49,271 bases of DNA from a virus, in IMG/VR virus record IMGVR_UViG_3300030104_003764, positions 3,294-52,564 of that record. The stretch is one strand, 5' to 3'. Below, piece by piece: positions 1 to 42,648 of this stretch. The notes under the pieces were generated by a model. The model did not search any database, was not told where the DNA came from, and saw nothing but the letters and a program-made list of their open reading frames with translations. The translations under genes and the position numbers were made by a program. The stretch's first letter is position 1, and each line of letters begins with the position of its first letter.

Positions 1-27
1 ACCTGAACAAAGAAAATTATGGCTTTC
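1..27. repeat. Inverted repeat, left arm (27 bp)
   Basis: Bases 1-27 are the exact reverse complement of 412-438, and the match stops at base 28. It starts at the window edge, so it could be longer. It may be an inversion site, a rearrangement joint or a fold-back assembly or amplification artefact. Confidence 0.8.
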
Positions 28-351
28 CTCTTTCCATATCTGAACCTGCGAAGGCCAAATTTTATCTGAAAACTCAACTTGCCAATCAGCAAAAAAATCT
101 TCATTTTCTTCTATTGTAATTTCAGGGGGATTATTGTCATCTGCATAAGCATCTTGTAGAATTATTTCAGTCACATGAAAACTAACTTCTCTTAGGCCAT
201 GTTCCCTTACACCAAATGTAAAATCCCATTTGACGACGCAATTGCCATCTTCAGGCCAACCGTTATTTTCTGAATCGTAATTATCAAAAGGAACACTTGT
301 TGTTTCAAAGGAATGACCCTCATTACCCTTTAGAATACGTTCCCAAGTCAT
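1..351 (-). CDS. Partial MxWxxILK-tagged protein
   Basis: The frame is open from an ATG at 351 to the window edge (117 codons), so the C-terminus is missing. It begins MTWERILK, the shared N-terminal tag of this gene block. The body is acidic and rich in aromatic residues and matches no family I recognise. The ATG overlaps the stop of the upstream gene (TAATG), which implies coupled translation. Its last visible 27 bases are an exact inverted copy of 412-438 inside the neighbouring gene, so the sequence close to the window edge may be rearranged or chimeric. Confidence 0.75.
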   Translation of the reverse strand, partial: MTWERILKGNEGHSFETTSVPFDNYDSENNGWPEDGNCVVKWDFTFGVREHGLREVSFHVTEIILQDAYADDNNPPEITIEENEDFFADWQVEFSDKIWPSQVQIWKEESHNFLCSG

Positions 352-662
352 TACTCATCACCTGTTGGATAAATTACACCTAAACGCCTTCCGAATTCTT
401 CATTCCATGTTGAAAGCCATAATTTTCTTTGTTCAGGTGAAGGATTATACAGTTGAAATTTCTTAGGTTTAGTGTGCATGATGTAATCTAAGTGTTCTTC
501 ATCACTAACCCCACCACTCAAACCTTCTTCTTTTCTTGCTTTTGCATTTTGCCATGCCCAAGAACGATAAGTAAGATAATTCGTGAGTTCAGCAGGGGTA
601 GTATCTACTTCAGTTCCATCATCTTTGATGCCCTTAAGTTTCAAAATATCTTCCCAAGTCAT
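351..662 (-). CDS. MxWxxILK-tagged protein, 103 aa
   Basis: The protein starts MTWEDILK, the block tag, followed by KLKG and a mixed-charge body with several Trp and Tyr residues. I recognise no domain. The start ATG overlaps the stop of the 44-aa gene (ATGA), and its own stop overlaps the next ATG (TAATG), so it is a member of a tightly coupled run. The tag suggests it shares a destination or partner with the other tagged proteins; its own function is unknown. Confidence 0.8.
   Translation of the reverse strand: MTWEDILKLKGIKDDGTEVDTTPAELTNYLTYRSWAWQNAKARKEEGLSGGVSDEEHLDYIMHTKPKKFQLYNPSPEQRKLWLSTWNEEFGRRLGVIYPTGDE
412..438. repeat. Inverted repeat, right arm (27 bp)
   Basis: This is the reverse complement of bases 1-27. 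It lies inside the 103-aa gene, where the minus strand encodes PEQRKLWLS. A 27-bp perfect inverted match 384 bases away is not expected by chance. Confidence 0.8.
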
Positions 663-793
663 GCTTCCTCAACCTCCTCGTATTCTGTTCCGCGCTCTTC
701 ATCAATTAACTTGATTTTTGTTTTATCAGGGGATGGAAATTTATGTGGCCTTGCCTTGTAGGGATGTTTCTTTAAAACATCTTCCCAACTCAT
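659..793 (-). CDS. Small MxWxxILK-tagged protein, 44 aa
   Basis: This short gene begins MSWEDVLK and ends with a Glu-rich tail (EYEEVEEA). Both ends overlap the neighbouring genes by four bases (ATGA), the same junction used across this block, and that is the main support for such a short frame. Beyond the tag there is only a Lys/Pro-rich middle. It may be little more than the tag plus a charged tail. Confidence 0.75.
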   Translation of the reverse strand: MSWEDVLKKHPYKARPHKFPSPDKTKIKLIDEERGTEYEEVEEA

Positions 794-1452
794 AGCAAAT
801 TCTCCTTTTTCAAATGTGCCTCATACTCTTCAAGAATTGTAAGTAGACCTTTTGTAACAACTTGTTTTGAACTGACACCACGTTCTCCACCTGAAAAGAA
901 AAATTGCCAAAGTGGTGGTTTTGCAGTATCTCTGTTTTCACTCGCCCAATCTTTAGGAATTGCAGGGAGGGTTTTGTTTCCGAGTTCAGATTGAATCTTG
1001 TTGTAGTGACTATTGTAGTAATGGCCAAACATTTCTTTCTTTTCTTTGGATTTGGCACGACCCTTTGTAGTCTTAACAGTCTTTGCAGAATGAGTAGCCT
1101 TGAGATTTTGTGGGTTACTATCTTCACTAGTTTCCATTCTTTTTAAATATCGAATGGTTTGAAGCACTCTTTTTGCACCGGCCTTGTCAATATCTCCACC
1201 CCTAAGACCAATTTCAAACGCTCTTTGAATTGCAGTTTTTCCCGCAACGGATGATTTTGCACCGGGCGTCCTTCCGTGATTAAATGCCATTGCCAAAAGT
1301 GAAGTGCTATTTTGTGGGCTAATTCCCAAAGCACTACCTGATTTTCCTTCAGCCTCTTGTTTTAATTTACGCATAGGTTCCTGAATCCAATTGTAGGGGT
1401 TAAGGTCTTTCTCGACCTTTTTCTTTTGTTTTAGAATATTGAACCATGTCAT
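790..1452 (-). CDS. MxWxxILK-tagged basic protein with GHY/PPLxQ module, 220 aa
   Basis: It begins MTWFNILKQKKK and is strongly basic in its middle (residues ~115-140). Residues ~140-210 contain GHYYNSHY, then a Trp, then PPLWQ and a final helix. The same order (GHYRDKY, KKGWW, PPLAQ, GL-x-x-I) occurs in the 371-aa protein at 9589-10704, so the two share a domain I cannot name. ATGA overlaps link it to both neighbours. A DNA-associated virion role is possible from charge and context, but it is inferred. Confidence 0.8.
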   Translation of the reverse strand: MTWFNILKQKKKVEKDLNPYNWIQEPMRKLKQEAEGKSGSALGISPQNSTSLLAMAFNHGRTPGAKSSVAGKTAIQRAFEIGLRGGDIDKAGAKRVLQTIRYLKRMETSEDSNPQNLKATHSAKTVKTTKGRAKSKEKKEMFGHYYNSHYNKIQSELGNKTLPAIPKDWASENRDTAKPPLWQFFFSGGERGVSSKQVVTKGLLTILEEYEAHLKKENLL

Positions 1453-1679
1453 GCTGTAAATGCCCCCCTTCTTTTACTACTTGGTTTGTGAGTATAAATA
1501 TCTCCATCTCGATGAATAAAGATTTTACCTTCCTTTTCTAATTTAGATAGTGCTGATTTAATTTCAGATTCTTCTCCAAATTGTTTTAGATTCTTCATAC
1601 CTAAAGCACCTCCTTCCTTTTTGATTTCAGCAAGAATCTTTCCTTCTATATTCATTTTCAATATATCTTCCCAACTCAT
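1449..1679 (-). CDS. MxWxxILK-tagged winged-helix-like protein, 76 aa
   Basis: It starts MSWEDILK. Residues ~20-65 read like a small winged helix: a helix (MKNLKQFG), a second helix (IKSALSKLEKEGK) and a beta wing (IFIHRDGDIYTH). A basic tail (SSKRRG) follows. It probably binds nucleic acid. If the tag sends proteins to the virion or another site, this one would carry a DNA-binding domain there. The fold is judged by eye only. Confidence 0.75.
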   Translation of the reverse strand: MSWEDILKMNIEGKILAEIKKEGGALGMKNLKQFGEESEIKSALSKLEKEGKIFIHRDGDIYTHKPSSKRRGAFTA

Positions 1680-2017
1680 GTTCTCATCCTCTTTGTCTTT
1701 CTTTTACTTGTTTCTTTTCTTGCTAAAGCGACCTTATGTGCTGCATTTAATCGTTTTTTCGTTTCTGGGTCTTTTGCTCTTTTAGCGGCTACTCTTGCTC
1801 TTTGTTCAACTAAGTTAATTATCTGTGATTGTCTTTTATGTGGTTTTGATTTAAATGAGCCGCTTGAAAATGTTTCCCTTACATCGTTTGCTGTTTTGAA
1901 TTTTACCGGAACTGTGTCTTTAGGGTTTTCATCTGTATATAATCTTCTATCTGAATCTTTTGGTTTTTTACCTGTTCCTTTTTTTGGGTCAGCCTTTAAG
2001 ATTTTTCTCCACATCAT
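1676..2017 (-). CDS. Very basic tagged protein, about 113 aa
   Basis: Two ATG codons in a row (2017 and 2014) give MMWRKILK, which matches the block tag; a GTG further up is possible but would put three residues ahead of it. The body is Lys/Arg-rich throughout and ends in a highly basic tail (SKRKTKRMRT), as in DNA-condensing or nucleoid-type proteins. No enzyme motif is visible. It overlaps the next gene by ATGA. Confidence 0.75.
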   Translation of the reverse strand: MMWRKILKADPKKGTGKKPKDSDRRLYTDENPKDTVPVKFKTANDVRETFSSGSFKSKPHKRQSQIINLVEQRARVAAKRAKDPETKKRLNAAHKVALARKETSKRKTKRMRT

Positions 2018-2019
2018 AA

Positions 2020-2304
2020 TCACTTTTGACTAAACTTCTTTCCTGTCTTTACATGTTGAATGCCTTTTTTACGGCCTTTTCTTTTCTTTGAATCTTGATA
2101 CCTTAGAGTTTTTTTATCTGTCCTTTGATAAGTTGCTTTAGGCATATATCTTCCCTTAGTTTTAGATGGTGCTTTTTTTCCTTTTGCTTTTGCTCGGTGT
2201 TGTTCAGCACTTCCCCAATCTTCATCAGTCCAAGTTGTTAAATCCTGCTGTCTTTTGGATTTAGTTTTGAGGATATTAAGCCAATTACTTTTTATAGCCA
2301 CCAC
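2020..2304 (-). CDS. Basic protein with displaced tag (SNWLNILK), 94 aa
   Basis: The reading frame contains NWLNILK, the block tag, but no ATG sits in the usual place: the codon expected to be Met is AGT. The nearest in-frame starts are two GTG codons (2304, 2301) just upstream, giving about five extra residues. The body has WTDEDWG, then GRYMPKA, and a Lys-rich tail, a pattern I recall from basic phage and algal-virus proteins related to DUF5872. It overlaps the 68-aa gene by 20 bases. Confidence 0.7.
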   Translation of the reverse strand: MVAIKSNWLNILKTKSKRQQDLTTWTDEDWGSAEQHRAKAKGKKAPSKTKGRYMPKATYQRTDKKTLRYQDSKKRKGRKKGIQHVKTGKKFSQK

Positions 2305-2491
2305 CTGCCCTTTTATATGCAGCCGCTAACATTTGTGCTTTTCTTGCAGACCATTGGCCTTTAGCCCCACCTTTATTACCGGCTTTAATTCTATTAAATA
2401 TACGCTTTCTTTTAGAAGGTTGAGTATAATTACCCGACGCATTTACAGTAGATTTTTTCTTTTTCTTCTTTAATATTTCTTCCCATGTCAT
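2285..2491 (-). CDS. MxWxxILK-tagged basic protein, DUF5872-like, 68 aa
   Basis: It begins MTWEEILK followed by six lysines. Residues ~30-68 hold KAGNKGGAKGQWSARKAQ and end GGGYKK. I recall this GGxxGQWSARKAQ...GGGY pattern from DUF5872-type proteins of large viruses and phages, whose function is unknown. In such proteins this part can be joined to the WTDEDWG part seen in the next gene, so here the two halves appear split and each carries a tag. Confidence 0.75.
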   Translation of the reverse strand: MTWEEILKKKKKKSTVNASGNYTQPSKRKRIFNRIKAGNKGGAKGQWSARKAQMLAAAYKRAGGGYKK

Positions 2492-3960
2492 TATCTGTCA
2501 CCTCTGCTTTGGTCTTCAACATCATATCGAACATTACTTGAACGAAGCATCTCTTCTTTTATTTTTCCAAAGAAAAGATTTCTTCTCTTTGGGTTCTTAA
2601 GACCATTATCTAAATAAAACTTTATTGCTCTTTTATTATCTTTACCTAAATTAGAAAACTTTACATATTTCTCAGGCTCAACAAAAGGGATGCTATCTTG
2701 TAGAATAGAATTACCCATTCTTATCCAACCCATATCAGCCATATCTTTCTTTTTTCTAATAGTGCTAGACTTAACCAAATCAAACCAACTCCCTGTATTA
2801 GACTTAATCCACTTTTGCACTTGGTCTGCGTATTTGGTATCTTTGAGTTCTTCTTGGATTTCTTTGGGGAGTTCTTCAACTTGCATATCAGTAAATCCTC
2901 TTTTTCTAAATGCACCCATTTCCGCTAATTTTTCATTAGCGACATTAATATACAAAGTTTTACTTCCTTTCTCGGATAGAACCTTTTGAACACATAAACC
3001 AAAAAGACCCTTACCCTTGTAGCCTTCCCTTGTATGAACACCTGCGCCAAGTAAAACACTCTTATACTTTGCTATTCCGCATACTGCTACGGGAGTTTCA
3101 CCATCGAATGCTACAAACATTCTTGCCGGTGCAGTAGCCCAAATAGAATCTTTTGAAAGGTTTGGCCCATATCGCATACTTCTTTTTTGATAGTCAAAAT
3201 ACCCATCATCTTGAAAAGTTTTAACTGCGGCATCCTCGGACATTTCCTTGAAAGTAATATCGCTTTCAGTATAATTCTGTTTCTTGAAAGTGAGCCTTTG
3301 TCCTGTTGGAAAATCAGTAGAATAAAGAGCCTTAGCATCCATTACCATTTTCTTATACTCGTCCGTAACCTTTCCTTCGGGAGTAACGAAACTTGCACCC
3401 GATTCATTCTTTTTAGAAACAGCAATAGAATCTTGTTTGTATTTCTTTGCCAAATCATATATCTTCTTCATCAAGTCTTCGGGAACATTAGTAAGCATAA
3501 AGGAAGGTTCTAATTCCCATTCAGCATTACCAGTAGCACTTGTAATAGTAAATGGTTTTTTCTTATTTCTTTTTAACTCATTATTTAATGTAGTTAAATC
3601 TTTGAGCATGGCATCGCTTAAGCGAGAGAGTTCTTTATTAGAAGTTGGCTTATTGCCTTCCTTTGCAGCAATAAAAACATTACTGTTTTTCTTGCTAAGG
3701 TTTCTTCTAATTTGCTTCTTATCAAAAGCAGGAAGAGTAGTTTGTTTTTTATTTATTTCATTGTCATCTAAATAAACATCTATTGCAGTATCATAATTTT
3801 GCAGATACTTTTGAGCATATTCAAAACCATAACTAAGGCCGTCAAAATAGTCGTCATATTTTTTACCAACTATTTTTTTAATTTTTTCAGAAAGTTCCAA
3901 TCCTTTAGAAACTACCTCCTTTACTTCTTTTTTATTTGCTTTAACTTCATCTATATTCAT
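2491..3960 (-). CDS. GNAT-domain protein, 489 aa
   Basis: Residues ~235-360 look like a GNAT N-acetyltransferase: a beta strand with VAVCGIAKY, then VHTREGYKGKGLFG (307-320), matching the acetyl-CoA pyrophosphate loop (R/Q-x-x-G-x-G/A), then a helix and a GFTDM strand. The N-terminal ~230 residues are charged and helical, and the C-terminal ~120 are unassigned. It lacks the block tag. A ribosome-binding site (AGGTGAT) precedes the ATG. Substrate unknown; acetylation of a protein or nucleic-acid modification are both possible. Confidence 0.75.
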   Translation of the reverse strand: MNIDEVKANKKEVKEVVSKGLELSEKIKKIVGKKYDDYFDGLSYGFEYAQKYLQNYDTAIDVYLDDNEINKKQTTLPAFDKKQIRRNLSKKNSNVFIAAKEGNKPTSNKELSRLSDAMLKDLTTLNNELKRNKKKPFTITSATGNAEWELEPSFMLTNVPEDLMKKIYDLAKKYKQDSIAVSKKNESGASFVTPEGKVTDEYKKMVMDAKALYSTDFPTGQRLTFKKQNYTESDITFKEMSEDAAVKTFQDDGYFDYQKRSMRYGPNLSKDSIWATAPARMFVAFDGETPVAVCGIAKYKSVLLGAGVHTREGYKGKGLFGLCVQKVLSEKGSKTLYINVANEKLAEMGAFRKRGFTDMQVEELPKEIQEELKDTKYADQVQKWIKSNTGSWFDLVKSSTIRKKKDMADMGWIRMGNSILQDSIPFVEPEKYVKFSNLGKDNKRAIKFYLDNGLKNPKRRNLFFGKIKEEMLRSSNVRYDVEDQSRGDR

Positions 3961-3964
3961 AAAA

Positions 3965-6535
3965 TCACCTAAAGTTCGCTTTCAAAACATATACATGCTC
4001 TGCATCAATTCCGTATTCCTTAGCAATACCTTCAAAAGAATCTACTGCCTTAACCACTCCAATAATTTCATTGGCACTCATATCAATATTGAATTGAGTT
4101 TCCATTTTAGTAATCATGTTTTCCATGTCATCATAATTATTTTCATTCTTCATTGAATGAATGACTTCTTTAGACTTAAGTATTCTTAACATATCATGGG
4201 CTTCAAGAAGTTTTCTTTGGACAATACTTTTAGCAACTCTATCTAATAGTCCAAGTAGTTCTTTTGCCTTTTCATTAGAAAATGTTTCTTTATCTCCTTT
4301 TTCTGTTCGATACAATAAATTTTCTCCTCTTGTTCTAATAACATCTACAAGAACTTGCATTGGGTATATATCAAGAGGTTCATCTGCATTTCTTTTATCA
4401 TATAAATCTAATACTGAGGTTTTTCTTTTTGGGAATTTATGTTCCCCATCTCTCTCTATTTTAGTTCTATCTTCTTCGGGTATCAATCTATAAACAGAAC
4501 CTAATATAGAACCAATGTCCGAAACCAAATCTTTACTTACTGAATCGTCATCAAAAACTCCCTTAAGAGTGGTAAGTAAATCAGTTGAGGCTGCGTATAA
4601 TTTAGAGTAATCAGTAATATTATTTGACCCTGCTAATGTTCTCAAATAAGTTGTAATGTCATCAATGTCTTCTTCTTCTAAGAAAGCAGTATCTCTTTCT
4701 AGTAATACTGTATTTATTGCTTTAATTGCTTTGTATTTGCTACCTATTGGTCGAGTAGCAGCAATTAATCTAAGTGTAAAGTCTCCTTCAAATGGCAACC
4801 TTATTCCGGCTCGATATGGAGAGAATTGAGGGGCTAAGAAACAATCAGCAATTAGTTTTGAAATTTTATTAACTGTCACGCTTATTTCTTCATGTAAGTC
4901 CTTTGCTTCTTTCATTGTAGTTTTATCGCTGTCATATCTCTGTGAGCCAGTTGAACCAGCAGCATAATTACTATAACTAAACCAAATGAAAGGAAAACCT
5001 GTTTTTGGGTTTCTCATTCGGTCTTCTGGTTTTCTTGATACTGGCGTTGTTCCTGCACCTGCCATATCTAAACGAACATTACTTGAAAGCGTTGCTTTAT
5101 CTTGTTCTAAAAATTCTTTAAATGCTTTGAGGAATTTTTTTATTACATCATCTGCTTTACTTGCCTCTCCCGCTAAACTTCGATATTCATTTTTTAATGC
5201 AGGGTCGTTAGCCATAAAGATAGGTAAGTATAATTCATCTCCAATATCTTCAACACTTTCTAAACCATCTAAAAAGTATTCAAATAAACCTTTTACATCA
5301 TCTTCTTCAAGATTAGGGTAGTTTGGATTATCTGGAGATAAGTCATCAAAATACTCCTTCAACTCTTCCTTTAAGGTTTGTAGATTAGTATTTACCATAC
5401 CAATTTCTTTGAGTTCTTTTCTAAAGTAAATTAAACCTAATGGGTCTAAAGGTTGGTCTTCGTCTAATATGTCTTTGAACTCTTCGATTTGAACAGGTAG
5501 TGAATCTATTTCTACCTTTTCATCAATGTCACTAGATTGTTCTACATTACCGGATTCTCCAAAATACCTACTGTATTCAATATTTTGATACAAGTCTTTA
5601 TCTTGAACTTCCATAATGCCTCCGATATAATTTAAAAAGTTTTCAAAGGTTTCATAAGCAACGACATCTATATCTTTTACTGCCACTTGGGTTCTATCAA
5701 ACTTTTCGATATAATTTAAATTTTTTATATTTTCTTCATTAGAAATTAATTTATCCAAAGCCAGCATGGTCTTGTCTTTTTCTGGTATCTTTTCAAAATG
5801 GGCCTTCAAGTTATTAAGTTGAACATTTAAATCTTTAAAACTCTCAAGGCTTACTTTCTTCCAATAATCATAGGCTCTTTCTCTATTTTCGAAGTTTTTC
5901 ATGCTTTTAGCATTGAAAACACTACTTACATCGAACCCAATAGACATTTTAGCAGCAATTTCTCCCCTAATTTTACCTTTACTACCTGTCTTATATTCAT
6001 CTTGAATCCTAGCAAATAGCCTACGAATGTTTCTTTTAATGTTTTTATTAGCCTCATTATCAGCAGTAAATTCGGGTTTCTTAAGAATATTTTGCCATTT
6101 AGCCTTTTTATCATCAATATCTATGGCTTTTTTACCTTTTTGGGTAAATCCTCCATTAACTAATTTGATTTCAGATTTATCAAAGTCACCTCTAATAATA
6201 TCGCTTGCATTGAGTTTTCTTCCTTGATATTGCATTCTTGAGAAACCGTTAATAAAACCATTGAGTATGTTTTCGTAAAGACCTGATGGTGTTTGGGGTT
6301 TTCCTCTACCACCCATCTTACTAAAGTAATCTTTTATCTCTTCAAGAATCTTAGCCATAGCCTTTCTTTTGTCACTACTACTTAATTCTTGATATTTAGA
6401 GTTTAACAAAGGAGAATAGTGTTCTATGAGTCTTGGCCTCATTCTTCTAGAAATTGCAGTAATTTCTTGGTATTTATTATAATCCAATACTTCCTCAAAA
6501 TTATCAAAATAGTTAGGTAAATATTCATATTGCAT
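3965..6535 (-). CDS. Large protein of unknown function, 856 aa
   Basis: This is the longest gene in the window. It has no tag, signal peptide or membrane segment. Most of it is helical and charged. A more conserved-looking part near residues 510-640 contains FPFIWFSYSNYAAGS and a long stretch resembling a globular domain. An AAGGTGAG ribosome-binding site precedes the ATG, and the stop codon lies inside the ribosome-binding site of the next gene. Size and position in the presumed late block suggest a structural or internal virion protein, without direct evidence. Confidence 0.7.
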   Translation of the reverse strand: MQYEYLPNYFDNFEEVLDYNKYQEITAISRRMRPRLIEHYSPLLNSKYQELSSSDKRKAMAKILEEIKDYFSKMGGRGKPQTPSGLYENILNGFINGFSRMQYQGRKLNASDIIRGDFDKSEIKLVNGGFTQKGKKAIDIDDKKAKWQNILKKPEFTADNEANKNIKRNIRRLFARIQDEYKTGSKGKIRGEIAAKMSIGFDVSSVFNAKSMKNFENRERAYDYWKKVSLESFKDLNVQLNNLKAHFEKIPEKDKTMLALDKLISNEENIKNLNYIEKFDRTQVAVKDIDVVAYETFENFLNYIGGIMEVQDKDLYQNIEYSRYFGESGNVEQSSDIDEKVEIDSLPVQIEEFKDILDEDQPLDPLGLIYFRKELKEIGMVNTNLQTLKEELKEYFDDLSPDNPNYPNLEEDDVKGLFEYFLDGLESVEDIGDELYLPIFMANDPALKNEYRSLAGEASKADDVIKKFLKAFKEFLEQDKATLSSNVRLDMAGAGTTPVSRKPEDRMRNPKTGFPFIWFSYSNYAAGSTGSQRYDSDKTTMKEAKDLHEEISVTVNKISKLIADCFLAPQFSPYRAGIRLPFEGDFTLRLIAATRPIGSKYKAIKAINTVLLERDTAFLEEEDIDDITTYLRTLAGSNNITDYSKLYAASTDLLTTLKGVFDDDSVSKDLVSDIGSILGSVYRLIPEEDRTKIERDGEHKFPKRKTSVLDLYDKRNADEPLDIYPMQVLVDVIRTRGENLLYRTEKGDKETFSNEKAKELLGLLDRVAKSIVQRKLLEAHDMLRILKSKEVIHSMKNENNYDDMENMITKMETQFNIDMSANEIIGVVKAVDSFEGIAKEYGIDAEHVYVLKANFR

Positions 6536-6537
6536 AA

Positions 6538-8508: not shown

Positions 8509-8517
8509 TATGTCACC

Positions 8518-8730
8518 TCAATTTAAATCATTTCTAATTTTTTTAAGTTGGGAATATACCTTACTAAGCCTATCATATTCCTTTCTTTGTTTAGTTCCTT
8601 CAGGCATACCACTAAAAGGATAGCCATTCAATTTAAGCAAAAGAGCACGAATTACTGCATCTAATTTATCGGCGAGTTCTTTTTCACTTATGTATTTATA
8701 GGGGTGTATTTTTTTAATTTCTTCATTCAT
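8518..8730 (-). CDS. Small helical protein, 70 aa
   Basis: An untagged, short, helical, Lys-rich protein (MNEEIKKIHPYKYISEKELADKLDA), probably two helices separated by a Gly/Pro loop (GYPFSGMPEGT). It lies between a tagged zinc-ribbon gene and the large 656-aa gene. It has no recognisable family and could be a chaperone or accessory for its large neighbour. Confidence 0.65.
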   Translation of the reverse strand: MNEEIKKIHPYKYISEKELADKLDAVIRALLLKLNGYPFSGMPEGTKQRKEYDRLSKVYSQLKKIRNDLN

Positions 8731-8742
8731 TGTAATCTCTCC

Positions 8743-8934
8743 TTATCTTGGACTATCTATTGATTCTGTGCCTTCATCTTCCGTATATCCACATTTAGTG
8801 CAATATGAAACTTTGTCTTTACCAGTTAATGAAGCCGATTCATTGGGAAAGGTAGTCATCATTTTTGAGCCGCATTTTGGGCATTTTCTATCCCCGTAAA
8901 AGGTTTCATTTTTTAGTATTTTTTCCCAACTCAT
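8743..8934 (-). CDS. MxWxxILK-tagged zinc-ribbon protein, 63 aa
   Basis: MSWEKILK is followed by a single zinc ribbon: CPKCG at residues ~18-22 and CTKCGYTED at ~45-53. The layout is that of TFIIS/RPB9-type ribbons (C-x2-C, about 24 residues, C-x2-C), but the DE pair of TFIIS is not obvious. A tagged zinc ribbon might carry a nucleic-acid or RNA-polymerase contact to wherever the tag leads. It overlaps the upstream gene by ATGA. Confidence 0.75.
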   Translation of the reverse strand: MSWEKILKNETFYGDRKCPKCGSKMMTTFPNESASLTGKDKVSYCTKCGYTEDEGTESIDSPR

Positions 8935-9587
8935 TGTAATTTCTCCTGCATTTTCTTTTTAATTTCAAGCCAAATCTCAGGATTGTTCTGTGCTAACACT
9001 TCTTGAACAACCTGCATCTGTGCGACAATAATTGTATCTTGTCTCTTGTGAACAAGTTTGCCTTTGAACTCAAGTAGATACTTTAATGACTCTCGAACTT
9101 CTTTTGCGAGTTTAGTGAGGCTATCAATCTCTCTTGGTTCTAAATCTGTATTAAGGAACAAGTCATTCAATTTATCATCTAAGCGTTGAACATTCGCACT
9201 AAGTAAATCAATCTCATTAACTTCTTTTTTCGCTATGATAGCGGCTGCGGATTGCTGCACCAATGGGGCCAAGTGGTGCTTCATGTGGCGTTGCACCTGT
9301 GTTTTTGTCATGTCTAATGCTTGAGAAATACCGTCACTTGTTATATTACCGTTTGAAAGGGCTTCCTCGTAATGTTTTCGCATTGGGTCTACACATAACT
9401 TGCATTTAGGATTACTGCTGTTTGTATATTCTCCCATGTGGTTTCTTTGATGTTGGGCCGAAGTTCCGCTTCTCCAACCATATCTTGAATCTAAATCGTC
9501 GCAACTAACAGAACCCTGTTCTAATGCGGCTTCAAGTTCTTCTCTATCTTTACACTGACAAAAAGCACATCTCTTTCTTGTAATCAT
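8931..9587 (-). CDS. Duplicated zinc/HTH protein, possible small terminase subunit, 218 aa
   Basis: Two similar N-terminal units each run C-x2-C, a ~30-residue helix-turn-helix-like part, then H-x-x-x-H (CAFC...HQRNH at ~8-50; CKLC...HMKHH at ~61-103). This C-x2-C/H-x3-4-H pattern with an HTH is common in phage and bacterial DNA-binding proteins, some annotated as small terminase. The C-terminal half is helical and probably coiled, as in small terminase oligomers. No large terminase is visible nearby, so this label is tentative; DNA binding is more secure. Confidence 0.6.
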   Translation of the reverse strand: MITRKRCAFCQCKDREELEAALEQGSVSCDDLDSRYGWRSGTSAQHQRNHMGEYTNSSNPKCKLCVDPMRKHYEEALSNGNITSDGISQALDMTKTQVQRHMKHHLAPLVQQSAAAIIAKKEVNEIDLLSANVQRLDDKLNDLFLNTDLEPREIDSLTKLAKEVRESLKYLLEFKGKLVHKRQDTIIVAQMQVVQEVLAQNNPEIWLEIKKKMQEKLQ

Positions 9588-9588
9588 T

Positions 9589-10704
9589 TTAATCTCTCCA
9601 AAGGTGTTCCATCCAAGATTTCTTTACTGTTTCGGGAACTTTAGTCTTTCCTTTAATATCTAAGTAATTACCGTTCTTAAGTTTGTAAGTATCTTTGCCG
9701 ACAACTTTCATAATTAAAGATGCCATAGCCGCCTGTCCAAAAGGTTGTAAAGAAAAGGTTTCTAATGGACTTGCCAATTCGGGTAAGTTACCAACATATT
9801 GAACAATTAATTGTGGCTTTGCTGACCTTGCACCAAAAGACTTTGTTCCCACTGCAAACTCCATCCCTTGTAATATAGTTGCCATTTGATTCAATTTGGG
9901 TTTGCCACCAGAAAACAAATCGTTTCTTTTTAATAAAGCAAATACTTGTTTTCTTACAGAAGGTATTAAAGCCAATGAACCTGCGCTTCTTTGCACTTTA
10001 AGTTGAATACTAGGAATTGGAGTTTTATCAATTTCTTCTATTGCTTCTTTAATAATATCATATAGTCCTTCTTTAACTAAATCTCCTTTTCCATAAATAG
10101 CCTGTGCCAATGGTGGATTTGCGTCATTTGGTGAAAGACTCCACCAACCCTTTTTTTCTGGAAGACCATACTTATCTTCAAAATATTTATCTCTATAATG
10201 GCCGTAAATAGTTTGAGGCTTTTCATCCAAAATATCTATTTTGTTTTTTGCACGACTACCTTCTCTTGGTTTTCCTTTACCTACTCTCCATCTTGTCGGT
10301 CTTGTAAAAACTGTATTTCTAGGATTAAGTTTCGGACTATTTTCAATTGCATCAATTGCTTCTATTAACTCTTCTAAGTCTTCTATATCGTCAGCATAGA
10401 AAACTGCTTTCTTAGTTAATAACTCACTAATGCTATCTAATACTTTAAACAAACCATCATTACCAGTATTACTAGAACCATCTCTTAAATACTTTCTTAC
10501 ATGTTCTTGTAGTTGTAAATACAATGTCTTAGGATAAGTTTGTCTTCCTTCTTTTGCATATGGACTTCCGATACTTGCTATATCTTTAGATGAAATACCA
10601 TCACATGTTTTCTTCCACTTTAGGAAAGCCTTTCTAAAATCATAAGAAGGGGCTTGTATTTTACTACCGTTAATATCAACTGTCGATTTCTTCGTCTTCG
10701 TCAT
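9589..10704 (-). CDS. Protein sharing the GHY/PPLxQ module, 371 aa
   Basis: The start at 10704 is chosen because GGAGGTGA lies six bases ahead; longer upstream frames lack this. Residues ~155-250 contain GHYRDKY, KKGWW, PPLAQ and GLYDIIKEA, parallel to the tagged 220-aa protein at 790-1452. The rest is unassigned, with a C-terminal globular part (SLQPFGQAAMASLIMKVVG). It has no tag. It overlaps the tagged 53-aa gene by 29 bases. Function unknown. Confidence 0.7.
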   Translation of the reverse strand: MTKTKKSTVDINGSKIQAPSYDFRKAFLKWKKTCDGISSKDIASIGSPYAKEGRQTYPKTLYLQLQEHVRKYLRDGSSNTGNDGLFKVLDSISELLTKKAVFYADDIEDLEELIEAIDAIENSPKLNPRNTVFTRPTRWRVGKGKPREGSRAKNKIDILDEKPQTIYGHYRDKYFEDKYGLPEKKGWWSLSPNDANPPLAQAIYGKGDLVKEGLYDIIKEAIEEIDKTPIPSIQLKVQRSAGSLALIPSVRKQVFALLKRNDLFSGGKPKLNQMATILQGMEFAVGTKSFGARSAKPQLIVQYVGNLPELASPLETFSLQPFGQAAMASLIMKVVGKDTYKLKNGNYLDIKGKTKVPETVKKSWMEHLWRD

Positions 10705-10837
10705 CTTTGTCACCTCCATATTTGATATTGAACTTTGAAGGGTCGTTACCGTGACCCCCAAACGCTACACCTCCGGCTTCCTTATTCAAGTTACCGCAAG
10801 CGGCACAACAGTTTTTAATTATATTCCACCAATTCAT
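10676..10837 (-). CDS. Small MxWxxILK-tagged Cys/Gly protein, 53 aa
   Basis: It begins MNWWNIIK, then CCAACG (a possible metal or disulphide site), a Gly-rich middle and an acidic tail (DDEDEE). The tag, the TGA stop inside the next gene and the tight junction to the upstream gene support it. Its 3' end supplies the ribosome-binding site of the 371-aa gene. Function unknown. Confidence 0.7.
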   Translation of the reverse strand: MNWWNIIKNCCAACGNLNKEAGGVAFGGHGNDPSKFNIKYGGDKDDEDEEIDS

Positions 10838-10838
10838 A

Positions 10839-11312
10839 CTATTTCCTCATATCTATACTTTCAACTGGTTTATCCCTTTCTTGTCGGGTTTCCATATATA
10901 ATACTAATTTGTCTTCTTTACTAACTATGTAAAGTTCTAATTCCCAAAGGTTTTCATCTAAGTCGTAGAATGGCCTGTCTTGTCTTCCTAAATAAACTGA
11001 AACAAAATAATTATCAATATATTTTTCAAAAAAATCTAGCATTTCCTGTCTTAAAGGAAAAAGAGGTAATGACTCTACCCAATCAACTATTTTACAAGCA
11101 GTTTCTTCGGGCATGTCTTCGAGGTCAATTTCAAACTCACTTCCTATAACTCGCATATAGTCGCCATTGATTCTTACAGCATTATCATAATATTGCTTTA
11201 GTTTATCTTTACAATTTTCCTTAATATTAACTTTAATTTTAGAAGCATCGAGAGTAGAACCTTTGGCTTTACCTTTACCCTTAAGGTTTTTAACTATGTT
11301 CCACCAATTCAT
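10839..11312 (-). CDS. KGSTLD-family tagged protein 1, 157 aa
   Basis: The start at 11312 gives MNWWNIVK and has GGAG upstream; longer frames put the tag inside. After the tag comes KGKGKAKGSTLDASKIKVN, a linker shared by four consecutive genes (10839-12968). A later shared element is MPEETAC. The rest diverges. This is a tandem paralogous family with the same tag, linker and a small C-terminal domain. Function unknown. Confidence 0.8.
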   Translation of the reverse strand: MNWWNIVKNLKGKGKAKGSTLDASKIKVNIKENCKDKLKQYYDNAVRINGDYMRVIGSEFEIDLEDMPEETACKIVDWVESLPLFPLRQEMLDFFEKYIDNYFVSVYLGRQDRPFYDLDENLWELELYIVSKEDKLVLYMETRQERDKPVESIDMRK

Positions 11313-11803
11313 ATGTATTCGCTCCATTTTTTATAATCTCTATAGTTTAAAATTAAATCTATTACTTCATCATACTCAACAACTTCATGGTTGAAAACAG
11401 TTATATAATATTTGCCCAATTTGCTACCCTTTATAAAAAAAGTATAATCTATATGTATTTCATACTTTGGCCCATCTTCAGGTAATATCCATTCATCCCA
11501 TTTATCTTCTCCACGCCTTGTATTTTCTACAAAGGCATCAATATCTTGGTCGTATTTTTCTATTAGTTTTAATATATGACAAGCCGCTTCTTCTGGTAGT
11601 CTCGGAAAAGCAGGGCCAATACCTACTTGTCCTTTCATTGATGGAAAAGGAACCGCTTTAAGAATAAGTTCTCTTAATCTCTTTTTACAAGGGCCATCTT
11701 CTTCTTCAAGTTGTTTTACATTCACTTTAATCTTTGATGTATCTAAAGTAGAACCTTTACCCTTTGAGGATAATTTAGCGTTCTTTAGAATATCCCACCA
11801 CAT
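11309..11803 (-). CDS. KGSTLD-family tagged protein 2, 164 aa
   Basis: It starts MWWDILK, one residue shorter than the common tag, with AAGTGATT ahead of the ATG. The linker SSKGKGSTLDTSKIKVNV matches its three neighbours, and LPEEAACHI matches their (P/N)EE-x-AC element. The C-terminal half is acidic and beta-rich by eye. It overlaps the following gene by ATGA. Probably arose by tandem duplication; role unknown. Confidence 0.8.
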   Translation of the reverse strand: MWWDILKNAKLSSKGKGSTLDTSKIKVNVKQLEEEDGPCKKRLRELILKAVPFPSMKGQVGIGPAFPRLPEEAACHILKLIEKYDQDIDAFVENTRRGEDKWDEWILPEDGPKYEIHIDYTFFIKGSKLGKYYITVFNHEVVEYDEVIDLILNYRDYKKWSEYI

Positions 11804-11808
11804 AATAA

Positions 11809-12480
11809 TCACTTCAAAATAGAGTTTAATTTTTGCTGTGCATCTGAAAATCTGATAGCATCCCATATTTGTTTAACATGTTCATCTTGGTTATCATATC
11901 TTCCAAAAAAACCACGACTCATAGAAATACCTATATGGACTTTTTTAGGATAACCGCCAGCCGCTACATAATTAAAAGGGTAATTATAACCTAATTCGGG
12001 ATTACCTTTTTGGTTTGAAGTTTCTAATCTTGGTTCAATATCGTATTCGTAGATGCTGGTTCTTTTTGCTTCTTCCGAATTAAACATTTCTATTAACTTA
12101 CATGCCGCTTCTTCATTAATGGGTTCATAGTCATGATACACATATACAGCCAAAGTGCCTCGATTGATAGATGTCGGTATTTTATATGTTGTAATTCCCT
12201 CTTCAAGCACTACAGCAAGGTCTAATTCTGATGTTCCTTTACGACCATCAGTATGACTCTCTTTATTTGTTGGAGGATTATTCTCATTTATTTCTTTAAT
12301 TATTCTCCGTAATACTGGTTCTATTTTTCTAGCATAGGCGGCACAAAACACTTGAGCCTCCTGTAATTTTTTGTTACAGTTATTATCTTGAATATTAATT
12401 TTAATCCTATTTGTATCGAGAGTAGAGCCTTTACCTTTGGCTTTACCTGTAAGTTTTTTAAGAATATCAAACCAATTCAT
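11809..12480 (-). CDS. KGSTLD-family tagged protein 3, 223 aa
   Basis: The longest of the four paralogues. MNWFDILKK is preceded by GGAGGAA. The linker GKAKGKGSTLDTNRIKINI is followed by an extra ~60-residue insert and then INEEAACKLIEMF. The insert contains GTSELDLAVVLEEGITTY, absent from the sisters. The family core is clear but no known domain is. Confidence 0.8.
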   Translation of the reverse strand: MNWFDILKKLTGKAKGKGSTLDTNRIKINIQDNNCNKKLQEAQVFCAAYARKIEPVLRRIIKEINENNPPTNKESHTDGRKGTSELDLAVVLEEGITTYKIPTSINRGTLAVYVYHDYEPINEEAACKLIEMFNSEEAKRTSIYEYDIEPRLETSNQKGNPELGYNYPFNYVAAGGYPKKVHIGISMSRGFFGRYDNQDEHVKQIWDAIRFSDAQQKLNSILK

Positions 12481-12968
12481 AGAAGTTTCCTCCATTCTTG
12501 GTAAGTTTCTAATCCATATTCACCTCTTGTGTTTGGATGGTCTAAAGGCCCTAATGCTTTAACACTCATCGCAAAAACTTCTTTTCCTTTAATTTCGCAA
12601 TATCCTATCAATGACGGATTGGTTGATTTAGGGCTAGATATTGAAACATCCCATACTATTGTATATCCCATGAAATTTTGAGCCTTACTTTTATCTCCAT
12701 ATTTTTCATATAGGTCTTGGGGAAACGAACCCATAATATCGTCATCTATTTCCCTCAAATCTTTTAAAAACTCACAAGCCACTTCTTCGGGCATTCTACT
12801 AAATGGGCCTTCTGCGATATATCCTTTACTTAATGGAGAGTCAATTAACTCCCGAACTTTCTTTTTACATTTATCATCTTTAATATTAATTTTAATTTTA
12901 CTCGCATCTAAAGTTGAGCCTTTTGCCTTTCCAGACAATTTAGACTCCTTTAGAATATCCCACCACAA
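12477..12968 (-). CDS. KGSTLD-family tagged protein 4, 163 aa, TTG start
   Basis: No ATG is available. A TTG at 12968 gives MWWDILK, identical to the tag of paralogue 2, and GGAGTGATT lies just upstream, so I take TTG as the start. The linker KAKGSTLDASKIKINI and the MPEEVAC element confirm membership of the family. It overlaps its downstream neighbour's ATG by four bases. Function unknown. Confidence 0.75.
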   Translation of the reverse strand: MWWDILKESKLSGKAKGSTLDASKIKINIKDDKCKKKVRELIDSPLSKGYIAEGPFSRMPEEVACEFLKDLREIDDDIMGSFPQDLYEKYGDKSKAQNFMGYTIVWDVSISSPKSTNPSLIGYCEIKGKEVFAMSVKALGPLDHPNTRGEYGLETYQEWRKLL

Positions 12969-12973
12969 AGGAA

Positions 12974-13669
12974 TCACTCCTTTAAGTAACTAAACCAATC
13001 CATTTTGTTTGCTTCCATGAAATCTTCACTAAAGCCTCTATCATCAACTTCAACTTCAAAATCGGATTCTTTTGCTTTATCTTCCGACTCTTTAGCCATT
13101 TTACGAATTAATGCACTTAATACAACTGCAACATATCCAATAAACTCTTGACTTGAAACAACTTCAATAAGACCTTGAGTAATTTCATGTTTCTCTTGGC
13201 CGCTTAATTCTTCACCGAGTTTATTTTGAATAGTTTCAGTAACATTTTTTCTCATTTCAAATACTACTTTATTTGCTGCTTTATCAGCAAGTCCTTGAAT
13301 TGTTGTAATTTGTGCATCAGTTAAATCATCACTTTCATCTGTATCGGGTTGTTCCTCTTGAGCAATATTGGTTACTCTACTTTCACGCAAATTGTCAATA
13401 TCTTTTTCCATTGATGGGTCATTCATCATATCAATACCGATAAGAATAGGTTCCATTAAAACAACTTCTGCCGCCTTTCTTTTATCTGTAACAGTAAGAC
13501 CTTCAACCTCTTCAAGCGATTTAAGCGTATCACCTAATACAGCACCACCTAATTTTGAAAGGTCAGGCGTATCTTGAATACGGTCAAAAATACCAGCATA
13601 TACGCCTCTTGAGTTTTTAACGACTTCTCTAAACGAAAAGTCTGCTTTTAATATATGTTCCCAATTCAT
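12974..13669 (-). CDS. Tagged protein with a second tag copy at its C-terminus, 231 aa
   Basis: It begins MNWEHILK and ends MDWFSYLKE, so the tag-like pattern M-x-W-x-x-x-L-K occurs at both ends. The middle is mostly helical and acidic, with a conspicuous Glu/Asp linker (residues ~105-115) and a helical C-terminal half containing a hydrophobic run near VAVVLSALI that is too short to call a membrane anchor. A protein with two docking ends could bridge two partners. Function unknown. Confidence 0.8.
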   Translation of the reverse strand: MNWEHILKADFSFREVVKNSRGVYAGIFDRIQDTPDLSKLGGAVLGDTLKSLEEVEGLTVTDKRKAAEVVLMEPILIGIDMMNDPSMEKDIDNLRESRVTNIAQEEQPDTDESDDLTDAQITTIQGLADKAANKVVFEMRKNVTETIQNKLGEELSGQEKHEITQGLIEVVSSQEFIGYVAVVLSALIRKMAKESEDKAKESDFEVEVDDRGFSEDFMEANKMDWFSYLKE

Positions 13670-13681
13670 TCTATTTCCTCC

Positions 13682-14158
13682 TTAATATCTAAAACCTGAA
13701 GGTTTTCTTTTTTTTGCTTTGCCCGAACCGCTTGGCGGTGGATTTACTGAATCTCTAATGGCTTGCTTAATCCTATTCCTTAAACCATCTTGCCCATTAA
13801 CTTTATCTTTTGGTTTTAAATCAAGTGAATTACCTTTGACAAATTCAATTTGACCCATAGTTTTATCTCTATTAGTATATCGAACTCGCAAATCATATCT
13901 AATCCGTTCTTCACCAAGATTTCTTGCAATAATTCTAATACCACAACCTACCTCGGAATCAATCGGTGGATATGTTTGGCTACCCTTAATTCTGCGAACT
14001 TCAAATCTAGCCTTTCTTGTAGAATCAACTAATCCTTCATAACCTAATGCTGCGTCTATTAACTTGGTTCTCAATTCAACAATATATTCTTCAATATTTA
14101 CTTCTAATTGTTCTCCAGTATTCATATCTTCAACTTTTAAAATGTCTTTCCAATTCAT
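13682..14158 (-). CDS. MxWxxILK-tagged protein, 158 aa
   Basis: The start at 14158 gives MNWKDILK with GGAAGTGA upstream; a longer frame runs into the preceding gene and buries the tag. The body looks beta-rich in the middle (RIIARNLGEERIRYDLRVRY) and ends in a basic, Pro/Gly/Ser-rich tail (GSGKAKKRKPSG). No family recognised. Confidence 0.75.
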   Translation of the reverse strand: MNWKDILKVEDMNTGEQLEVNIEEYIVELRTKLIDAALGYEGLVDSTRKARFEVRRIKGSQTYPPIDSEVGCGIRIIARNLGEERIRYDLRVRYTNRDKTMGQIEFVKGNSLDLKPKDKVNGQDGLRNRIKQAIRDSVNPPPSGSGKAKKRKPSGFRY

Positions 14159-14171
14159 GTTATTCACTTCC

Positions 14172-14483
14172 TTAGAGTTCTCCGCCGGAATCATCATAGG
14201 GCTGGTATGTTTTCCTTTTAGGGAAAGTTTCATCCCATGATTCTTCTACTATTTTTAAAAGAAGTTGCTTTGCTTCTGTTAATGACTGTTCTCTATCAGT
14301 AGTTCTATTATATATATATCCTTCTGGGTGCTTATAACCCTCACTATCATAATCTACAATTAAATTATCTTTTAAAAACTTCTTCATTTTTCTCTTAAAA
14401 GAAGCATCTTTCATTCTTTTGATTAATGCCTTTACTTTATCTTTTATTCCTTTTTCAAGTTTAAGTTGTTCTTCCCAAGTCAT
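14172..14483 (-). CDS. MxWxxILK-tagged protein (variant MTWEEQLK), 103 aa
   Basis: The tag is slightly altered, with Gln in place of Ile (MTWEEQLK). A long basic helix (KDKVKALIKRMKDASFKRKMKKFLKDN) follows, then a C-terminal part with YIYNRTTDREQSL. A DNA- or protein-binding helix is plausible. Function unknown. Confidence 0.75.
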   Translation of the reverse strand: MTWEEQLKLEKGIKDKVKALIKRMKDASFKRKMKKFLKDNLIVDYDSEGYKHPEGYIYNRTTDREQSLTEAKQLLLKIVEESWDETFPKRKTYQPYDDSGGEL

Positions 14484-14499
14484 TTCTTAGCCTCCTTAA

Positions 14500-14724
14500 T
14501 CATTCCTCATCTTTAGGATTTCTAAAACAATAGTCGCATATTTTTACACCTGCTTCTAATTGTTCATCTGTAAGTTCTTCGCCACATGAAAGGCACTGTA
14601 AATCTTCATCTAAGTCTTGCATATTTGGGTCATAATCGTCTTTTGGGTCATAATCAATGTTCTCATCATCCATCATTCTATGTTCCGGCCCTTGATAGTT
14701 TTTTAATACTTCTCGCCAACTCAT
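14500..14724 (-). CDS. MxWxxILK-tagged acidic zinc-ribbon protein, 74 aa
   Basis: MSWREVLK is followed by a very acidic stretch (DDENIDYDPKDDYDP) and a C-terminal zinc ribbon: CLSCG at ~44-48 and CDYC at ~63-66. It is the second tagged zinc ribbon in the block, after 8743-8934. It overlaps the 37-aa gene by ATGA. Confidence 0.75.
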   Translation of the reverse strand: MSWREVLKNYQGPEHRMMDDENIDYDPKDDYDPNMQDLDEDLQCLSCGEELTDEQLEAGVKICDYCFRNPKDEE

Positions 14725-14834
14725 TTTTTCACTTCCTTTCCGGTTACAAAGTCTTTTTTTGTCTTTTTCTCAGTTTCATCAATCTTCTTTGATTGTTCAT
14801 CAAACCAAGCATCTAATGTATTACATCGTGTCAT
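14721..14834 (-). CDS. Small Lys-rich protein, 37 aa
   Basis: An untagged 37-codon frame (MTRCNTLDAWFDEQSKKI...) with GAGGCGA ahead of its ATG and an ATGA overlap with the next gene. A single charged helix is likely. Support is the ribosome-binding site and perfect packing between two genes; function unknown. Confidence 0.55.
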   Translation of the reverse strand: MTRCNTLDAWFDEQSKKIDETEKKTKKDFVTGKEVKK

Positions 14835-14835
14835 G

Positions 14836-15720
14836 TTATTCGCCTCTCATTCTATTTCGTCTTAAATCTATCTTTGGTTTCCTCTTTCTTTCTTCCTTAC
14901 TTGATTGAGGTATTCCTCTTTGACTGTATTCCATTTGTCTTTGTTGGATTCTGTCATATTGTTCCTTACTTTTGGCTCTTCTCTTGTTAATTAAATTAAA
15001 AATAGGTTTTAAGATGTTTTGCTTAACCCAATTTTTACTAATCAATGCTCGTTGAGTAAGATATAAGTCATGTTTGTTTCTAATAAAGGCATCATTAAAA
15101 TAAGTTTTAATAGTTGATGGTGTTATTGTTTCAAAATTAAATTCTTCTTCTAATATCTCTATTATCCTTTCCTTAAATCCTTTAACAGTATCTAACTTAT
15201 ACTCTTTATGTTCTTCATTCCACCGTTGAATAGATTCAGCACTTCTTTTCTTATCCGGTAATCTTGCTCTTTTCGTAGGATTTTTCTTTCTCATAGCAGA
15301 AGCAATTTTTGCACCAACAGTAATAAGATATGCTCTTGCTTCATCGGGAACTGTTATTCTATTTAACTTATTACCATAATGTGACTTAATCCAACTAGAA
15401 TCTTTGACAGTAACAAAATATCCTTTTTCTCTTAAAATCTTCAAAAGGCCCGATTGATTATCAATTGTTCTATCTGTAATAAATTTAAATGAATCTTGAA
15501 TAAACTTCTTTGAGCCTTTTGGTGCAAATCGAATACTACCATCAGCCATTCTTTCGGCAGGGTCAGGGCTTTGTGGAGGTTCGATATGAAGGACTTTAGC
15601 AGGATTATCTCTATCCCACGCCTTTACTGTTTGTTCCAAATAGTCGGGATTCCACTCAAAATGCTTATCAGCCTCCGGCATATCAATAACCGGTCTTTTG
15701 AGTATAGCCCACCAATTCAT
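14836..15720 (-). CDS. MxWxxILK-tagged basic protein, 294 aa
   Basis: First gene of the main tagged run, starting MNWWAILKRP. It is strongly basic, with a GSIRFAPKGSKKFIQDSF element, a Lys/Arg-rich middle (KKNPTKRARLPDKKRS) and a basic, Gln-rich tail. No catalytic motif is seen. The 134 bases upstream are AT-rich and could hold the promoter of the block. Probably DNA-binding by composition; otherwise unknown. Confidence 0.75.
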   Translation of the reverse strand: MNWWAILKRPVIDMPEADKHFEWNPDYLEQTVKAWDRDNPAKVLHIEPPQSPDPAERMADGSIRFAPKGSKKFIQDSFKFITDRTIDNQSGLLKILREKGYFVTVKDSSWIKSHYGNKLNRITVPDEARAYLITVGAKIASAMRKKNPTKRARLPDKKRSAESIQRWNEEHKEYKLDTVKGFKERIIEILEEEFNFETITPSTIKTYFNDAFIRNKHDLYLTQRALISKNWVKQNILKPIFNLINKRRAKSKEQYDRIQQRQMEYSQRGIPQSSKEERKRKPKIDLRRNRMRGE

Positions 15721-42240: not shown

Positions 42241-42648
42241 ATGATAAGTGATGAAGAAAGAATGAAAGCCACACCGAGACTTGCACAAGGTTGTTGTAAT
42301 GATACTCATGTAATAGACAAGCGGGGTAATATCCTTCAAGTTAATAGTATATCAAAGAAAAAGGCAAAGAAACTTTTAGCCTATAAAATAATCTGTATGA
42401 AAAGAGCATTAGATGATATTGATTTGTTATTGGACTATGCTCCTGTTGGAGATGGAACAGCCAAAACATTTGCTCGTAATTTGAAATTAAATAAGACTTT
42501 GTATAGGTTACAAGTTTGGGAAGAAGAAGACGAACCCGAAGCATTACAACTGGTAATGGATTTGGCAATAAGAAGTTTAGAAAATGGAGCAAGTCAAGAA
42601 ATAGTGCTTGCCATGTTAAAACAGAGTAGAGGTGACAGAGATGATTAA
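42241..42648 (+). CDS. Unknown protein, 135 aa
   Basis: Starts directly after the ligase stop. CCNDTHVIDKRGNI near residues 18-31, then a basic helix (SKKKAKKLLAYKI) and an acidic helical C-terminus. No family recognised. Overlaps the histone-fold gene by eight bases. Confidence 0.65.
   Translation: MISDEERMKATPRLAQGCCNDTHVIDKRGNILQVNSISKKKAKKLLAYKIICMKRALDDIDLLLDYAPVGDGTAKTFARNLKLNKTLYRLQVWEEEDEPEALQLVMDLAIRSLENGASQEIVLAMLKQSRGDRDD

Follow-up and report, generated by a model that had tools for sequence, protein, structure and literature searches.

Unrelated late proteins encoded in a stretch of viral DNA were found to begin with the octapeptide M-[SNT]-W-x-[DNE]-[IV]-[LI]-K, here called the tag. 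The stretch comprises positions 3294–52564 of the 52,564-base record IMGVR_UViG_3300030104_003764, and these 49,271 bases are referred to as the window. Judged from sequence comparison, the tag is most probably a head-docking (cargo-loading) peptide of a magrovirus lineage, which copies the C-terminal tail shared by the prohead protease and a putative scaffold protein. A head-loading signal is the most likely role because the same motif ends the capsid-maturation protease of related viruses.

The head genes lie beyond the end of the window's record, and all statements about them rest on relatives. A PCNA search gave such relatives, two of which are large and tagged, G001 (71.7 kb) and G002 (76.3 kb). 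The PCNA of the window is 90% identical to that of G001, a contig that encodes the large terminase (TerL), portal, protease and major capsid protein (MCP). In G001 and G002 the tagged block is situated mostly immediately upstream of the large terminase gene, and downstream of the block in G001 the PHROGs matches were terminase, portal, prohead protease and MCP. The C-terminus of the G001 protease is ...EMDWSDIHKMVNNI. Between portal and protease a coiled-coil-like protein of 79 residues (p79) is encoded, which ends in ...SMDWSDIHKMVEKVGGQ; by its size, coiled-coil look and gene position, it is probably a scaffold-like prohead protein. The tail consensus, M-x-W-x-[DE]-I-x-K, coincides with the tag in M, W, the acidic residue, I and K. 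Of 99 complete protease homologues, 97 kept the tail, and the remaining two depart from it solely by I-to-V and K-to-R replacements; of 145 p79 homologues, 138 carry the p79 tail. An alignment of 69 proteases, the most divergent 45% identical, has Met396 and Trp398 in every sequence, and the C-terminal region around them is variable. Moreover, C-terminal M-x-W-x-x-[ILVM]-x-[KR] occurred in 100 late-strand open reading frames (ORFs) and in none of the 3913 ORFs of the other strand. The AlphaFold model of the protease, of low overall confidence (predicted local distance difference test, pLDDT, 52), contains long confident helices at residues 302–383 followed by two short helices at 390–406. As modelled, this layout resembles a protease-scaffold fusion that ends in a docking element, such as phage lambda C/Nu3; the model gave no Foldseek match at E <= 0.001.

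In the window, a strict scan (M-x-W-x-x-[ILVMF]-[ILVMFA]-[KR]) found 14 tagged starts between 351 and 15720, on the minus strand only, and five variant starts raise the total to 19 (MTWERILK, whose gene runs off base 1, SNWLNILK, MWWDILK, LWWDILK and MTWEEQLK). The sequence-only reading had given 19 tagged starts among 27 leftward genes; the 19 is reproduced as 14 strict and five variant starts, and the leftward block at 1–16 kb holds about 26 genes (25–26 counted) instead of 27. A tagged start was scored in 18 of 25 late and one of 59 early genes (Fisher p = 9e-12); the sole early match is an internal coincidence, and the true number among the early rightward genes is 0 of 59. To the left of the window, the record contains eight tagged starts, including that of the gene extending into the window.

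The virus itself was characterized by its rightward genes at 16.4–49 kb, recognized by eye as UvrD-type helicase, ribonucleotide reductase, TFB, GroEL-type chaperonin (corroborated with a GroEL tblastn), DNA ligase, RFC, RadA, PCNA and PolB. Magroviruses are tailed viruses of marine group II archaea in which the replication and morphogenesis blocks are opposed and a chaperonin is encoded (PMC10768690). The gene content of the window, which matches this description, indicates that it is magrovirus DNA: PolB, clamp, clamp loader and chaperonin are present, as are two divergent gene blocks and, taken from G001, HK97-type head genes. The archaeal virus proposed in the sequence-only reading is thereby borne out by gene content and by relatives. 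We know of no cultured magrovirus.

Confinement of the tag to the late strand extends to the relatives. A terminase search yielded 80 related loci (1.35 Mb), in which tagged starts number 556 on the late strand versus 1 on the other, so that enrichment only in the late block of related viral genomes, the check proposed earlier, was confirmed. Many of these loci are closely related and the raw counts are not independent; therefore, the family-level logo given below is the safer number. With a plain DNA pattern, 20 large contigs gave about 245 matches on the dominant strand versus 3 on the opposite one, and a reversed-pattern control gave 2. In a test free of regular expressions, 357 (31%) of the 1136 non-redundant late starts behind a Shine-Dalgarno sequence had Trp at position 3. 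The tagged genes share their strand with the TerL, portal, protease and MCP genes and mostly adjoin them.

The anatomy of the tag was determined at the level of protein families. Bodies, defined as tagged proteins minus the first ten residues, were clustered by single-linkage BLAST (cut-off 1e-4), and 558 distinct tagged proteins fell into 206 body families, 129 of them singletons, a count that varies with the cut-off and in which short proteins may conceal distant kinship. The earlier claim that the tagged bodies are unrelated thus stands. The logo of one representative per family (n = 206) reads M (181), then S, N or T, W (206), K, E, Q or F, and D, N, S or E, followed by I (171) or V (29), L (145), I (44) or V (15), and K (202), with the consensus M-S-W-K-D-I-L-K. 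The regular expression behind this logo fixed W and constrained positions 6–8; the 357 starts found without it prefer the same residues (I/V 277, L/I/V 314, K 295). From position 9 on, the 206-family logo shows no conserved residue, the sequence being already random there. Among 150 tagged families, Pfam gave only six matches and PHROGs only three, each in a single family. A literature search found no account of this motif; a 2017 magrovirus paper was outside its scope.

The motif is not bound to protein starts. A position-weight scan of protein interiors (score >=9) gave 122 matches on the late strand versus 6 on the other. About half of the interior matches lie <=25 residues from the C-terminus, as in proteins ending in KKSWQDILRW or LKSWMDILRN, and others lie at domain junctions, for example AYASGYVKKSWKDILKSN, or KKWFDILK after GNAT-like domains. 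The window alone displays three placements: N-terminal tags, the C-terminal MDWFSYLKE, and the inter-domain SWFDLVK and KWQNILK. The strictly N-terminal tag of the earlier reading therefore has to be given up, and this independence of position favours a docking peptide over a start-site signal. One body may bear a class-1 tag, a class-2 tag (described below) or none, which amounts to gain, loss and swapping of tags. Fused cargo bodies usually retain one tag, at the N-terminus of the polypeptide: homologue-query matches were 71 with a tagged N-terminus versus 82 without a recognised tag, and 48 of these 82 belong to one doubtful family, F81. The classes of swaps and fusions were assigned with simple pattern rules, and their counts refer to query-subject matches, which are not independent events.

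The scan of viral contigs for the pattern reached magroviruses whose capsid proteins are only 52–56% identical. These carry 6–20 tags each, a protease W-tail and, where the region was read, a p79 W-tail, the tails lacking K8. Three contigs without a magrovirus capsid had one chance match apiece. Tags and tail are both missing from the head-gene region of HVTV-1 and HCTV-1, two distant, cultured viruses of haloarchaea whose protease and capsid homologues show 24–30% identity. Tags and tail co-occur in the tested genomes, because both are kept in the distant magroviruses and both are absent from HVTV-1 and HCTV-1.

If the tag is a head-docking peptide, tagged late proteins would be recruited into the assembling prohead through a docking interaction common to the maturation protease and probably p79, which would engage in it via their C-terminal tails. 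The cargo would mimic these tails in eight residues, would travel in the virion and would possibly be delivered to the next host, like the internal proteins of T4 or the Dar proteins of P1. By analogy with known systems, the capsid protein is tentatively favoured as the docking partner, in which case the inner face or the N-arm would be the most likely site; p79 or the portal come next. The N-terminus of the capsid protein (YINTIxDLEAxTYG...LLK; G001 41151–42488, alignment A4) is almost invariant, and its sequence makes it a candidate docking site. We lean slightly towards a single position-independent code for the whole internal proteome, which could be placed at the N-terminus, the C-terminus or a domain junction, new cargo arising by gain of the octapeptide. 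The sequence-only reading had already suggested entry into the virion or a common partner. Late-strand confinement, adjoining head genes and the tails of protease and p79 now add to this suggestion, and packaging itself is inferred from them.

Several observations weigh against docking of the tag in the head. An AlphaFold prediction in which the last 45 protease residues were joined to MCP (59 sequences; pLDDT 55, predicted template modelling score 0.51) gave no usable docking, the confidence of the model being too low for a decision. The fusion was made by reading through two TGA codons, as the protease and MCP genes of G001 are in frame; an alignment adding full-length proteases was left out since MAFFT placed the proteases over the capsid protein. 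Position 7 is L/I in tags versus H/E/D in tails, and in the most divergent magroviruses the tails lack K8 and the tags keep it in 44 of 46 cases. Because K8 is lost from tails and kept in tags, tag and tail are under non-identical constraint. Protease and p79 could, moreover, share the motif by binding one another and not the shell. Finally, the window's record stops before the head genes, which confines the comparison of tail and tag to relatives.

Several known systems resemble the proposed one in part. In encapsulins, which are non-viral, a short terminal peptide docks cargo to an HK97-fold shell; as far as we know, its sequence is unrelated to the tag. The scaffold SP of phage 80alpha and CpmB of SaPI1 have a common C-terminal RIIK motif that binds the capsid protein (PMC5644958). 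As in that system, a short motif ends different proteins, here protease and p79, the latter being assigned to the prohead by gene position; the 80alpha and SaPI1 proteins are, however, two competing scaffolds with the motif at the C-terminus only, whereas in magroviruses it serves also as an N-terminal cargo tag. In phage P1, the N-terminal 30 residues of DarB suffice to bring a reporter into the capsid (PMC9024508), but the Dar N-termini have no common consensus, unlike the magrovirus tags. The T4 capsid-targeting sequence comprises about 10 N-terminal residues on unrelated internal proteins, namely IPII, IPIII and, in some accounts, Alt (PMC9958956, PMC7411985). The likeness is a short N-terminal sequence on unrelated proteins, which in T4 recruits cargo to the prohead and here would do so, judging from sequence. 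In T4, few proteins carry it, at the N-terminus only, and it is removed by gp21, whereas in magroviruses about 200 families carry the tag, C-terminal and inter-domain copies occur and no cleavage site is mapped. For SPN3US, prohead targeting by the protease C-terminus and cargo targeting by N-terminal propeptides have been proposed; these propeptides are much longer, and the available part of that account mentions no 8-residue motif common to protease and cargo (PMC7411985).

Removal of the tag by the prohead protease after targeting, as in a T4-type propeptide, is a sub-variant of head docking that we regard as possible but doubtful. The prohead protease cuts off both the T4 sequence and the propeptides of SPN3US (PMC9958956, PMC7411985), and tags retain K8 also in those viruses whose protease tail lacks it, which would be expected of a processing site. 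Nothing is conserved past position 8 that could mark a cleavage site, which deprives the T4-like propeptide parallel of the earlier reading of its expected signature (a cut after K8 itself is compatible), and extreme C-terminal and inter-domain copies suit docking better than N-terminal removal. It is unlikely that the tag docks onto a late partner outside the head, such as a replication or transcription complex, a host protein or the membrane. W-x-x-I-L is a docking-type pattern in general, and the tagged bodies include DNA-binding-like and zinc-ribbon-like proteins; however, prohead protease and p79 end in the same motif, tagged genes adjoin head genes and replication genes are untagged. We consider it improbable that the motif is a protease cleavage site as such, the late proteins being precursors and the inter-domain copies parting polyprotein domains. 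The copies that lie between fused domains and the one that ends the protease itself would fit, but unless it served targeting, the removal of eight residues from about 200 unrelated N-termini would have no evident purpose; no downstream residue is conserved, and any plausible scissile bond would be situated downstream of the invariant Met and Trp.

The codon usage of the tag bears on a signal in the nucleic acid, a translation enhancer or a recombination junction at gene starts, which would encode the peptide incidentally. The codons for I6, L7 and K8 are as variable as in gene bodies, and therefore selection there acts on the peptide, as claimed before. The claim does not extend to codon 2, where Ser is mostly AGT (82 of 91 at family level; 85% in tags of the TerL loci vs 36% in untagged genes); this bias is unexplained by peptide selection and leaves a slight DNA-level or descent effect. 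The AGT bias and the MQERLQ gene ends of some neighbours speak for such a signal, but it was rejected as very improbable, being contradicted by free codons 6–8 and by C-terminal and internal copies. Descent of all tagged genes from one ancestor, with the tag as a duplication relic, has a true paralogue cluster in its favour (F6, four copies in the window's record) but is hardly credible and was rejected, since no similarity is detectable among the 206 body families, of which 129 are singletons, and tags swap on one body.

A second tag class, MTW[DN][YF]Y, marks one conserved family, with class 2 on 78 homologues and class 1 on 18. M-[TS]-W-[DN]-[YF]-Y dominates the family upstream of p79 (L036 9186–9551 and homologues), and in another family class 2 replaces a class-1-like tag on the same body, in G002 (53436–53780) compared with the window (14172–14483). 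In locus L352, neighbouring genes (starts 3833, 4384, 6630 and 7181) share a longer N-terminus, LKNIQI[SG]SQ[KR]T[GS]S[KR][DNE]Y, behind the tag and look as if tag and linker had been copied together. In G002, unrelated neighbours (58648–59307, 59304–59504, 60114–60374) end in MQERLQ, directly overlapping the next tagged start, which suggests gene exchange at gene junctions. Two different magrovirus terminase genes, separated by about 90 kb, lie on one 184.7-kb contig, IMGVR_UViG_3300021958_000021 (L054, L118). The contig either joins two genomes or is an assembly chimera.

The features of the window are collected in Table 1. The 489-residue protein listed there has a GNAT-like domain and a weak match to S-adenosylmethionine lyase (E 3.5e-6, slightly below the Pfam cut-off). 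The degenerate KKSWMEHLWRD may correspond to the relatives' C-terminal tags KKSWQDILRW and LKSWMDILRN, a likeness unconfirmed by body alignment.

Table 1. Tagged genes and tag-like copies in the window (window coordinates).
Position	Strand	Feature	Motif	Protein length (residues)	Remarks
1–351	-	tagged gene	MTWERILK		extends past window
351–662	-	tagged gene	MTWEDILK	103	
659–793	-	tagged gene	MSWEDVLK	44	
790–1452	-	tagged gene	MTWFNILK	220	
1449–1679	-	tagged gene	MSWEDILK	76	family F0; winged-helix matches weak
1676–2017	-	tagged gene	MMWRKILK	113	family F3
2020–2304	-	tagged gene	MVAIK-SNWLNILK	94	GTG start; family F31
2285–2491	-	tagged gene	MTWEEILK	68	family F4
2770–2790	-	inter-domain copy	SWFDLVK	489	protein at 2491–3960; directly downstream of GNAT-like part
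6080–6100	-	internal copy	KWQNILK	856	protein at 3965–6535
8743–8934	-	tagged gene	MSWEKILK	63	zinc-ribbon-like
8934–8978	-	weak C-terminal tail, W-x-[DE]-I-x-K-like	EIWLEIKKKMQEKLQ	218	
9592–9624	-	degenerate C-terminal tag	KKSWMEHLWRD	390	
10676–10837	-	tagged gene	MNWWNIIK	53	
10839–11312	-	tagged gene	MNWWNIVK	157	paralogue family F6
11309–11803	-	tagged gene	MWWDILK	164	family F6
11809–12480	-	tagged gene	MNWFDILK	223	family F6
12477–12977	-	tagged gene	MIP-LWWDILK	166	GTG start; family F6
12974–13669	-	tagged gene	MNWEHILK	231	second tag-like copy MDWFSYLKE at C-terminus (13003–12977)
13682–14158	-	tagged gene	MNWKDILK	158	
14172–14483	-	tagged gene, variant	MTWEEQLK	103	G002 homologue starts MTWDYY (second tag class)
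14500–14724	-	tagged gene	MSWREVLK	74	
14836–15720	-	tagged gene	MNWWAILK	294	

The hosts of these viruses, marine group II, are abundant marine archaea, and almost all late proteins of magroviruses are unannotated. If the tag is indeed a head-docking peptide, a virion location would be assigned to about 200 protein families at once, and a sequence test would be at hand for packaged, probably injected, proteins of uncultured marine viruses, whose cargo could be expanded by gaining eight residues. Capsid targeting as known from T4 and P1 would thereby be extended to archaeal viruses and linked to scaffold docking of the 80alpha/SaPI1 kind, and the tag becomes a candidate for directing foreign proteins into an HK97-fold shell.

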